A stretch of DNA of 64,000 nucleotides, taken from assembly GCF_003853705.1 (NCBI RefSeq), contig NZ_QTQI01000014.1, forward strand, positions 1 to 64,000. The letters are read 5' to 3'. This DNA is from Burkholderia sp. Bp8992 (lineage in GTDB: Bacteria; Pseudomonadota; Gammaproteobacteria; Burkholderiales; Burkholderiaceae). Of this stretch, positions 22,304 through 25,351 are shown one piece after another. How positions within the stretch are numbered: the stretch's first letter is position 1; each line of letters begins with the position of its first letter. A model generated the notes under the pieces. It did no database searches. It had not been told where the DNA came from and was given only the letters and a program-made list of their open reading frames with translations. The position numbers and the translations under genes were made by a program.

Positions 22304-22517
22304 GATTGGTCGGACCGCTTCCATTCGACGCCCGTCCGACGGGCGAATCGGGCGCGCCCGGGCATCGCGTGCCGGCAGCGGGCCGCGCGCGGGGCGCCAG
22401 GTGCCGCCTGCGCGATTGACCGGTTCGCCGGCCGCCCACTAGAATCGGCCGGAACCGCGCGCCAGCCGCGCGCCGCGGCGAATGCGGACCGTCGTTCCGC
22501 CAGTCGAGGAAACTCCC

Positions 22518-24140
22518 GTGCTCACGTCTTTCATCCGGCGCGCGCCGGCCGCGCCGTCGTGGCGTGCCGCATGCCGCCCGGTCCGTGCGCTGGCCGTCTG
22601 CGCACTGCTGTCGCTCGTCGCCGCGTGCGCGACGCATCCGCCCGCCACCACGCTCGATCGCCCGGTGTCCCACGCGTTGCCGCCCGATACCGCGACGCCG
22701 CTGCGCGACGCGCTGGCCGCACCCGAAGCCGCGCATCCGGGCCAGTCGGGTTTCCGGCTGCTGCCGGAAGGCGCCGAAGCGCTGCAGATGCGCATCGCGC
22801 TCGCCCGCGCTGCGACGAAGACGCTCGACATGCAGTACTACATCGCGACCGAGGACACGACGGGCAAGCTGCTGCTCGCCGCGGCGCTCTACGCGGCCGA
22901 CCGCGGCGTGCGCGTGCGGATGCTGGTCGACGACCTGAACTTCCGCGACATCGACCGCGTGATGGCCGCGCTGAACACGCACCCGAACATCGAGATCCGC
23001 GTGTTCAACCCGTTCGGCGCGTCGCAGGGCATGGTCGAGCGCACGACCGACTTCTTCACGCGCATCGACAGCTTCACGCGCCGGATGCACAACAAGGCGA
23101 TGATCGCGGACAACCAGATCGCGATCGTCGGCGGCCGCAATCTCGGCGACGAATACTTCAGCGCGAGCCCGACGCTGCAGTTCCGCGATCTCGACGTGCT
23201 CGCCGCCGGCCCGGTGACGAACGACGTCTCGGCGAGCTTCGACACGTACTGGTCGAGCGCGAGCAGCTATCCGTTGCGTGCGCTGAATCATCAGACGTTC
23301 GATCCGAAGGATCTCGATGCGATGCGCGACGAGCTGCGCGCTCATTGGCGCCAGAACGCCGAGCCGTACAACGCGAAGCCGCTGAATGCGACGCCGCTCG
23401 CGCAGCAGATCGCGCGCGACGCGCTCGAGCTCGTGTGGGCGCCGGCCGAATTCAAGGTCGACGCGCCCGACAAGGTCGCGCGGCCGACCGACGCATACGT
23501 GAGCCCGCCGATGCAGCGGCTCGCCGAGCTGACGCGTGGCGCGCAGCAGGAATTCCTCGCGTTCTCGCCGTACTTCGTGCCGCACGACGCGGGCGTGAAG
23601 ATTCTCGGCGACACGACCGCGCGCGGCGTGCGCGTCGCGATCCTGACGAATTCGCTTGCCGCGACCGACGCGGTCGCCGTGCAGGCTGGCTACGGGCCGT
23701 ACCGCGTGCCGTTGCTGCAGCGCGGCGTCGAGCTGTACGAGTTCAAGGCGCAGCCGGGCAGCCCGCGCCCGCGCCTGTTCGGGTCGCGCTCGCGTGCGAG
23801 CCTGCACGCGAAGGCGTACGTGATCGACCGGAAGATCCTCGTGATCGGCTCGATGAACCTCGACCCGCGTTCCGTGCACCTGAATACCGAACTGGCACTG
23901 GTGATCCACAGCCCGGCGCTCGCGGAGCAGGCCGCGAAGATCTTCGCGCGCGCGACGCAGCCGGACGAAAGCTATCGCGTGAGCCTCGTCACGCCGGCGG
24001 GCGGCGGGTCGCCCGGACTCGAGTGGACGGGCATCGACGACGGCAAGCCGACGACCTATCACGTCGATCCGCACGCGGGGCTGCTGCGCAACCTGATGAC
24101 GGGCATCTTCATGCTGCTGCCGGTCGACGACCAGCTTTAG
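22518..24140 (+). CDS. Phospholipase D-family lipoprotein (cardiolipin synthase-like)
   Basis: The 540-residue product begins with a long signal region ending in a lipobox (SLVAAC, about residue 37). It has two HKD motifs, MHNKAMIAD and LHAKAYVID, each followed by a glycine-rich strand and N, so both active-site halves are intact. The family includes phospholipases and the ClsC-type cardiolipin synthase. The GTG at 22518 has GAGGAAA upstream. The stop codon TAG is formed at the junction with a structured element; without the insertion the stop would read TAA at the same codon. Confidence 0.85.
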   Translation: MLTSFIRRAPAAPSWRAACRPVRALAVCALLSLVAACATHPPATTLDRPVSHALPPDTATPLRDALAAPEAAHPGQSGFRLLPEGAEALQMRIALARAATKTLDMQYYIATEDTTGKLLLAAALYAADRGVRVRMLVDDLNFRDIDRVMAALNTHPNIEIRVFNPFGASQGMVERTTDFFTRIDSFTRRMHNKAMIADNQIAIVGGRNLGDEYFSASPTLQFRDLDVLAAGPVTNDVSASFDTYWSSASSYPLRALNHQTFDPKDLDAMRDELRAHWRQNAEPYNAKPLNATPLAQQIARDALELVWAPAEFKVDAPDKVARPTDAYVSPPMQRLAELTRGAQQEFLAFSPYFVPHDAGVKILGDTTARGVRVAILTNSLAATDAVAVQAGYGPYRVPLLQRGVELYEFKAQPGSPRPRLFGSRSRASLHAKAYVIDRKILVIGSMNLDPRSVHLNTELALVIHSPALAEQAAKIFARATQPDESYRVSLVTPAGGGSPGLEWTGIDDGKPTTYHVDPHAGLLRNLMTGIFMLLPVDDQL

Positions 24141-24430
24141 GGCCTGTTCACGCTAATAACGGGCTTGCGCTGGCCCCCAGAAGGGCCGAGCGCAAGGAAT
24201 GCGACGCAGCGAATACTCGACGTATTCGCAAGGAGCATGACGCGGCGATCGGCCCTTCTGGGGGCCAGCCCCACGAATGAATTTTCCAAAAAACAGGGGA
24301 ACGTGCCTTGCCGGCCGCACTGCGGCGTCGATCGTCGCTTGTTTGGCGCGGCCAAACGGCGCTCCTCCCTCCTTGCATTGCGACCGGCAAGGCACGTTCG
24401 CAAGCCCGTTATTAGCGTGAACAGGCCCTA
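24138..24430. mobile_element. Structured MITE-like element with 30-bp perfect terminal inverted repeats and TA duplication
   Basis: The element runs from 24140 to 24428 (289 bp) with TA at both edges (24138-24139, 24429-24430). Its ends are perfect inverted repeats: 24140-24169 pairs with 24399-24428, beginning GGGCCTGTTCACGC. Two further perfect stems lie inside: 24170-24189 with 24249-24268 (20 bp) and 24300-24314 with 24384-24398 (15 bp), each with a small hairpin within. No transposase is encoded. Removing the element and one TA rejoins the upstream gene to a TAA stop, which supports insertion at a TA target, as used by several IS families. I infer a non-autonomous element; an RNA role is possible. 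Confidence 0.75.
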
Positions 24431-24577
24431 AGGGGACGGAAGCGCTCCGGCTAAACCCGCGTTAACGCGGCTCGGGGAAGGTGATATGGTTGTGTCCGCA
24501 ACCATCATGGCGGTGTGGCGATGCGCCCCGGCGGCCCGCGCCACGTGTGCTGCGCCCACCCGCAACCGGAGTTCCCC

Positions 24578-25351
24578 ATGCAACGTGTACCGAACCAGCC
24601 GTTCGCGCGTCCTTCCCGCTTCTCCGAAGCCGAATGGCAGGCGCGCGTGCAGCTTGCGGCCGCCTACCGCATCTTCGACACCCTCGGCTGGACCGAGCTG
24701 ATCTACAACCACATTTCGCTGCGCGTGCCGGGCGAGGACGGGCATTTCCTGATCAACCCGTTCGGGCTCCATTACCGCGAGGTGTGCGCGTCGAACCTCG
24801 TGAAGATCGACATCGACGGCAACGTGATCGGGCATTCCGACTGGCCGATCAATCCGGCGGGCTTCACGTTTCACAGCGCGATCCATGCGGCGCTGCCCGA
24901 CGCGCATTGCGTGATGCACGTGCACACGACGCCCACGATGGCCGTGTGCTGTTCGCGCGACGGGCTGTCGTTTTCCAACTTCTATTCGGCGCAGCTGTAC
25001 GGGAAGATCGCGTATCACGACTTCGAGGGCATCACCGTGCATCTCGAGGAGGGCAGGCGCATCGTCGAGAGCGCGGGCGGGCGGCCCGTGCTGCTGCTGC
25101 GCAACCACGGCCCGGTGACGATCGGCGCGACGCTCGCGCAGACGTTCTCGCTGATGTGGCTGCTCAACCGTGCATGCGAGGTGCAGGTCGCGACGCATGC
25201 GATCGGCGGCCCGCTGCCGATCGCGCCGCCGGTGCTCGAGGGATGCGTGCGCGATTCGCTGAATTTCGATCCGAAGCATGGCGCGGGGCAGGACGCGTTC
25301 GACGCGCTGCAGCGTATCGTCGATCGCATCGATCCCGGCTATCGCGCATGA
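24578..25351 (+). CDS. Class II aldolase/adducin family protein
   Basis: The 257-residue protein has the aldolase II fold: NHISLRVPG near residue 48, FHSAIHAALPD and the metal-binding HVHTTP near residue 115, and a further histidine in LLRNHGPVTIG. The family cleaves or epimerises phosphosugars, but members of this kind without a clear pathway are common and the substrate is unknown. The ATG at 24578 has GGAG upstream. It stands alone, with the mobile element on its left. Confidence 0.85.
   Translation: MQRVPNQPFARPSRFSEAEWQARVQLAAAYRIFDTLGWTELIYNHISLRVPGEDGHFLINPFGLHYREVCASNLVKIDIDGNVIGHSDWPINPAGFTFHSAIHAALPDAHCVMHVHTTPTMAVCCSRDGLSFSNFYSAQLYGKIAYHDFEGITVHLEEGRRIVESAGGRPVLLLRNHGPVTIGATLAQTFSLMWLLNRACEVQVATHAIGGPLPIAPPVLEGCVRDSLNFDPKHGAGQDAFDALQRIVDRIDPGYRA

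Follow-up and report, generated by a model that had tools for sequence, protein, structure and literature searches.

A TA-inserted MITE family of Burkholderiales with covarying stems, possibly maintained by template switching between hairpin arms

The Correia (NEMIS) elements of Neisseria are TA-flanked MITEs with a strong single long hairpin, and the REP sequences associated with RAYT transposases are short, tetranucleotide-tagged palindromes not known to have a target duplication. The element described here resembles the former in its TA flanks and strong hairpin but forms a three-way junction with two inverted hairpins instead of a single hairpin. Identity with a REP/RAYT palindrome was rejected because the element is 289 bp long and has a TA duplication. 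Bacterial MITEs are described in PMC10969869 as short, gene-free, intergenic multicopy elements with long terminal inverted repeats, a direct target repeat, and a stable predicted transcript fold. The present family agrees with that account in all of these features but differs from it by two inner covarying stems with conserved distal motifs, by ends that, unlike the conserved core, vary from one genome and even from one copy to another, and, in the one case tested, by an element that is no deletion derivative of its partner insertion sequence (IS). Template switching homogenizes the arms of inverted repeats and inverts spacers, as reported in PMC8604942. In quasipalindrome correction, arms become identical and spacers can invert, as in our family; PMC8604942 and PMC7202029 describe the process for short repeats at single loci, whereas we are dealing with a dispersed family with three nested stems. 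No paper on this element family was found in the open-access collection searched.

The window, i.e., the whole stretch of 64,000 nucleotides that was analyzed, stems from Burkholderia sp. Bp8992 (contig NZ_QTQI01000014.1). Direct reading of the sequence places the element at positions 24140 to 24428 (289 bp), with TA on both sides at 24138 to 24139 and 24429 to 24430. The features of the locus are as follows.

22482 to 24140, plus strand: upstream gene, phospholipase D or cardiolipin-synthase-like (PLD-like), with every NCBIfam match below the curated cut-off
24138 to 24139, no strand: left TA of the target duplication, which also supplies the T and A of the upstream gene's TAG stop; a single TA in empty orthologues
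24140 to 24169, plus strand: left 30-bp terminal inverted repeat, outer stem
24169 to 24189, plus strand: stem 1, 5' arm, perfectly paired with 24249 to 24269
24190 to 24248, plus strand: distal part of hairpin 1, a conserved, partly unpaired motif with the palindrome GCGAATAC..GTATTCGC
24249 to 24269, plus strand: stem 1, 3' arm
24270 to 24298, no strand: linker joining hairpins 1 and 2, the least conserved segment
24299 to 24314, plus strand: stem 2, 5' arm, paired with 24384 to 24399
24315 to 24383, minus strand: distal part of hairpin 2; in relatives, hairpin 2 is matched by the hairpin 1 model on the opposite strand
24384 to 24399, plus strand: stem 2, 3' arm
24399 to 24428, plus strand: right 30-bp terminal inverted repeat
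24429 to 24430, no strand: right TA of the target duplication
24578 to 25351, plus strand: downstream gene, class II aldolase superfamily protein (NF005451 above cut-off)

Complementarity between the two 30-bp ends is perfect. Together with the outer stem that they form, an inner stem of about 21 bp and another of about 16 bp make up a three-way junction. The same junction results from the RNA fold of positions 24139 to 24430 (-201.2 kcal/mol; z = -16.1), which was equaled by none of 200 shuffled sequences. Covariance model R1 matches the distal part of hairpin 1 plus stem 1 (24173 to 24266), and its match to hairpin 2 of relatives on the opposite strand identifies the two hairpins as inverted homologues. 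None of the three reading frames examined contains a transposase-like ORF. With terminal inverted repeats and no transposase gene, dispersed copies, empty sites, and a TA duplication, the element is a MITE. This anatomy had been laid out in the original prediction for positions 24138 to 24430, an interval that includes both TA copies, and direct reading and the RNA fold agree with it in the 289-bp length, the perfect 30-bp ends, the flanking TA, the two inner stems, and the three-way junction.

The history of the insertion is visible from orthologous sites, which were compared for the best 30 of 61 loci: 25 are empty, 4 contain scars of 27 to 40 bp, and 1 carries a full copy in the opposite orientation. 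The distance between a fixed upstream and a fixed downstream anchor is 345 bp in the window, compared with 54 bp in 18 of these 30 orthologues. The difference of 291 bp corresponds to the 289 bp of the element plus 2 bp, hence to a clean insertion with a 2-bp TA duplication. The closest element-free relatives read ..CAGCTTTAAGGGGACGG.. at the junction and terminate the upstream gene with TAA, compared with TAG in the window, where the element begins with the G of this codon. CTT TAA stands at this position in many element-free orthologues, so that the stop codon has stayed at the same codon, as originally proposed. The proposal of a non-autonomous, replicated element that entered a TA and left the upstream protein intact likewise holds: neither a single-copy sequence nor a universally occupied site was found, since other genomic copies and empty TA sites exist in number.

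The opposite-orientation copy in genome G025 (locus L045, 1186 to 1498) is a full 313-bp family member located at the same TA as the window element. It could have arisen by spacer inversion or by independent insertion, and sequence comparison favors the latter, since its identity to the window copy (87%) is below that of many copies elsewhere (93 to 95%). With a full opposite copy in another species and scars in four other species, the window TA looks like an insertion hot spot.

Beyond this locus, the element matched 24 of 25 Burkholderia genomes and none of the 16 genomes of other genera in a first sample. Of 37 Burkholderia genomes, 31 contained its 30-bp end with up to 2 mismatches, compared with 0 of 24 others, and a reversed control pattern gave no match. 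A second subfamily with different stem sequences is equally widespread as the window type (found in 68 of 299 genomes and, at the genus level, in 9 of 25 Burkholderiaceae genera), and more stem sets are present in relatives. Altogether, 131 full-length copies were collected, and 101 distinct sites are represented. The hairpin 1 covariance model extended the range to 63 of 349 genomes and 38 of 147 genera of Burkholderiales; applied to the window, it recovered the element (E = 1.4e-23) and the reverse strand thereof, with no further match below E = 0.07. Among 29 order-wide loci inspected, inverted ends were located at a distance of 260 to 293 bp in 20 and of 191 bp in 1, and TA flanked both sides in 8 of these 21. 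The end sequences are quite different between genomes, while the fold is unchanged. No match was obtained among 50,697 phage records, and 7 of 72,556 plasmid records had one. The truncated left part of a window-type element is present on a plasmid of Cupriavidus necator (L203, 1501 to 1585), outside the Burkholderia group.

Some copies deserve separate mention. A divergent subfamily is represented in the small, 1.7-Mb genome G117 by no fewer than two intact copies (L334 and L335). Hairpin 1 of L319 (element 365 to 667) contains an additional mini-hairpin of the GTCCCCC..GGGGAC type, which measures about 26 bp and is possibly an insert of its own; hairpin 2 of L045 and L088 contains one as well. 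Exact ends were present in 67 stretches from named genomes of Burkholderia and Paraburkholderia; 44 of them have a partner end within 3.5 kb, always at 141 to 314 bp, and 23 have none. An autonomous element behind these single ends was rejected, because they represent partial copies or products of deletion and have no long element in common; the sole long stretch that recurs, between L101 and L115, is an orthologous locus. Several single ends stop at GGCCC beside TA. Solo remnants that end with GGCCC near TA (L089, L127, L094, L092, and L117) are, by their sequence, consistent with a loss between two short GGCCC repeats, one located at the stem 1 base and the other at the terminus, as is expected of deletions across palindromes.

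A clue to mobilization is provided by the relative genome G497, where opposed pairs of one and the same 18-bp end are spaced either 266 to 268 bp (22 pairs) or 855 bp apart (12 pairs). The three 855-bp copies that were read have TA on both sides, and one copy encodes an IS5-family transposase as two pieces, each in its own frame, which exceed the NF033580 cut-off and also match PF13340. These IS differ from the short element by their transposase; the two have identical 19-bp ends in common and otherwise exhibit chance-level matches of 9 to 10 bp, i.e., no homology beyond the ends. The short element had no match in plasmid records. In some regions of G497, e.g., 2571794 to 2574728 and 3285905 to 3288357, two IS copies adjoin a short element that has their ends, and these groups may be composite structures.

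IS of the NF033580/PF13340 type, which we take to be IS427-like, begin with GGG(T/C)CTGTT(T/C)AC in Burkholderiaceae, and TA is present on both sides in 18 of the 20 copies with both ends called. In Burkholderia, they share with our element the GGG(T/C)CTGTT.. end and the TA between Y and R. The Burkholderia IS5-family relatives of L138, which were detected in 11 of 65 genomes, have GGGTCTGTT(T/C)ACATT ends and the same TA target. Their first 12 to 14 bases resemble the element ends; the first 14 are those of the second subfamily, and the window's own ends fit less well. An IS-length pair with the window's outer 18 bp was not found in five Burkholderia genomes, in which none of 81 matches formed a pair of more than 314 bp within 5 kb. 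A transposase gene framed by the same ends, for which the original prediction proposed to look, was recovered in the relative G497, and the search with the window's 18-bp end in the five Burkholderia genomes was negative. The IS5-family transposases (NF033580 and PF13340; DUF4096 group) are therefore regarded as candidate mobilizers, with shared ends seen in one relative genome and a corresponding role that we infer for Burkholderia.

The two outer ends appear to change together. Two copies in G526, otherwise separated by few-base differences, deviate at four bases of the outer left end and at the complementary four of the right end. A similar pattern is seen in G496, where copies that do not differ in their 93-nt hairpin 1 and retain the inner portion of the outer stem are unlike one another in the outer blocks of both ends. 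The same core was found with many different ends.

Insertion takes place at TA, preferably YTAR. Of the 77 copies with TA on both sides, 35 reside in CTAG and 22 in TTAA, counts that are biased by an end-calling procedure that gave a positive score to TA and GGG. Complementarity extends into the flanks of the 101 sites: positions -2/+2 are complementary in 71 (shuffled, 52.7; maximum of 5000 shuffles, 67) and positions -3/+3 in 65 (shuffled, 44.4; maximum, 60), while nothing was seen at positions 4 to 15. A palindromic target preference could mimic a correction signal at -3/+3. At 8 of the 101 sites, CA on the left faces TG on the right, a pair that cannot be a direct duplication. For copy L211, which has such flanks, at least two changes must therefore have followed the insertion. 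Exactly 2 bp are missing at the junction in 2 of the 29 relatives read (L384 and L385), and the other 27 have gaps of -4, -3, or -1; the original target may have been TA. The flanks of L206 are too diverged for an empty-site comparison.

The stems of the family show massive covariation. The 131 full-length copies contain 60 different 30-bp arms, and the two arms of one copy differ on average at 0.50 positions; in a first set of 75 copies, the difference was 0.41 positions within and 8.5 between copies. In 50 diverse copies, which were chosen sequences and from which a further analysis took 33, 96.9% of the cells are paired. Both-side changes affect 49 of 105 pairs (534 cells); the shuffled mean is 148, none of 500 shuffles was as high, and slid partners gave 21 to 59. 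Across the order, 52 distinct hairpins 1 have a covariation score of 0.818 (shuffled, 0.192; slid, 0.08 to 0.12), albeit with a bias, since these copies were both found and aligned by the structure model. Covariation was also followed in 11 ortholog pairs at 10 cross-species sites (hand-chosen from 27 found; two share one site). Among 1139 base pairs, there are 35 with a one-sided change and 18 with a change in both partners, and all of the latter are still Watson-Crick pairs. Independent arms would yield 1.24 double changes, and the maximum of 10,000 shuffles was 7. Judged from these orthologs, the compensating changes arise in place; exchange between copies at different loci may be an alternative source of paired changes.

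The explanation that we consider reasonably probable combines these observations, all of which are drawn from sequence comparison. A MITE inserted at TA would be mobilized in trans by a transposase of the IS5 family (NF033580/DUF4096 group) that recognizes its outermost bases. The ends enclose an order-wide conserved core, made of two hairpins that are inverted homologues. During replication, one hairpin arm would be copied with the other as template, in a process known as quasipalindrome or template-switch correction, and a substitution in either arm would thereby be transferred to the opposite one. Such transfer would affect both ends of the element and sometimes reach 1 to 2 bases into the target duplication. 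Such arm-to-arm templating would keep the three stems nearly perfect, and it would keep both ends alike while they drift or are replaced. The two ends could thus evolve jointly and track those of various insertion sequences, with the core retained. Pairing would accordingly be kept mainly at the DNA level, and template switching and end turnover are the two processes that we infer. Several observations speak against this explanation, namely, the absence of an IS-length pair with the window ends in the five Burkholderia genomes and the occurrence of IS5 relatives in only 11 of 65 genomes, the conserved distal mismatches, the order-wide G-U excess of hairpin 1, as single-strand selection would give, and the opposite asymmetry of the distal part of hairpin 2 in the genus. 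More tentative is the extension to the whole order, according to which the elements are chassis with a two-hairpin core, whose distal motifs are selected as folded DNA, and with ends that turn over while following or switching between IS5-family transposases.

Selection on DNA structure is a related explanation, in which the hairpins extrude as a cruciform or as single-stranded DNA and the fold is kept because a putative host or transposition protein binds the distal motifs. Identities between four subfamily consensuses are in line with this, as they amount to 71 to 91% in the distal hairpin parts compared with 42 to 87% in the stems and 35 to 72% in the linker, and a GCAAGG-type motif recurs on both sides of each hairpin tip. 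The internal loops of the distal parts contain conserved mismatches that were not removed by correction, so something selects on these motifs, and we read them as being under selection. The mismatches of the long stems are symmetric between the strands, which also suits a DNA structure. This explanation, with its putative binding protein, seems rather unlikely; it is compatible with template switching and could hold beside it.

The opposite view, a structured noncoding RNA or an RNA-processing signal on a MITE, would ascribe the covariation to RNA pairing and to selection of the transcript fold. Arguments in its favor are the extreme fold stability and a pattern typical of structured RNA, in which helices covary around unpaired motifs that are conserved. 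An RNA under selection should tolerate G-U better than A-C on its strand. This is the case for the model-found copies of hairpin 1 across the order (16 versus 3 site types and 38 versus 5 cells), but the long stems of the genus have similar numbers of both, with 30 versus 25 site types and 51 versus 35 cells, 16 of the G-U cells coming from one position. In the el2 outer stem, 16 of the 20 G-U cells (versus 6 A-C) are from one position. On the plus strand in the genus, the distal helices of hairpin 1 have 11 G-U and 10 A-C site types, and the distal part of hairpin 2 has an A-C excess (23 versus 11). Since the hairpins are inverted homologues, any strand preference points to opposite strands, which one transcript cannot satisfy, and no single transcript carries both in sense. 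Moreover, the in-place double changes comprise more transversions (10) than transitions (8), and transversions cannot pass via G-U; pairing also reaches into the target duplication. A search of Rfam with positions 23800 to 24800, up to E = 1, yielded mir-431 alone (27.7 bits versus a threshold of 70), and identity with a known Rfam family was rejected, no score being above the gathering threshold.

Gene context does not help the RNA explanation either. Sufficient flank was available for 93 of the 101 sites, of which 21 are tandem in the sense of the element, 29 tandem in the opposite sense, 17 divergent, 9 convergent, and 17 undetermined; as far as a crude gene caller can tell, these 93 sites are neither concentrated at gene ends nor biased in orientation relative to the neighboring genes. 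The original idea of an exaptation in mRNA 3' end formation is therefore not supported, and of its claim about the unusual regularity of the stems, the regularity is real, while the RNA role is better replaced by arm-to-arm DNA correction. An RNA function is improbable, and DNA-level correction is the process by which the long stems would be kept. That the element is an ordinary decaying internal-deletion derivative of one insertion sequence is scarcely credible, as its small size, TA duplication, and IS-like ends would fit, but element and IS of G497 have only the outer 19 bp in common, one core carries many different ends, and the stems show no decay.

Base-pair covariation is the standard comparative evidence for functional RNA structure. 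In this family, the covariation score is about four times that of shuffled columns, yet the long-stem mismatches are strand-neutral and the pairing enters the target duplication. If template switching at the DNA level is the cause, searches for structured RNAs need to control for it. The family would then provide many loci at which natural arm-to-arm correction can be measured, and the process would be a way for a MITE to keep its ends matched while changing its transposase. If the order-wide chassis interpretation is also true, strong covariation of a family can come from DNA replication, without a functional RNA.
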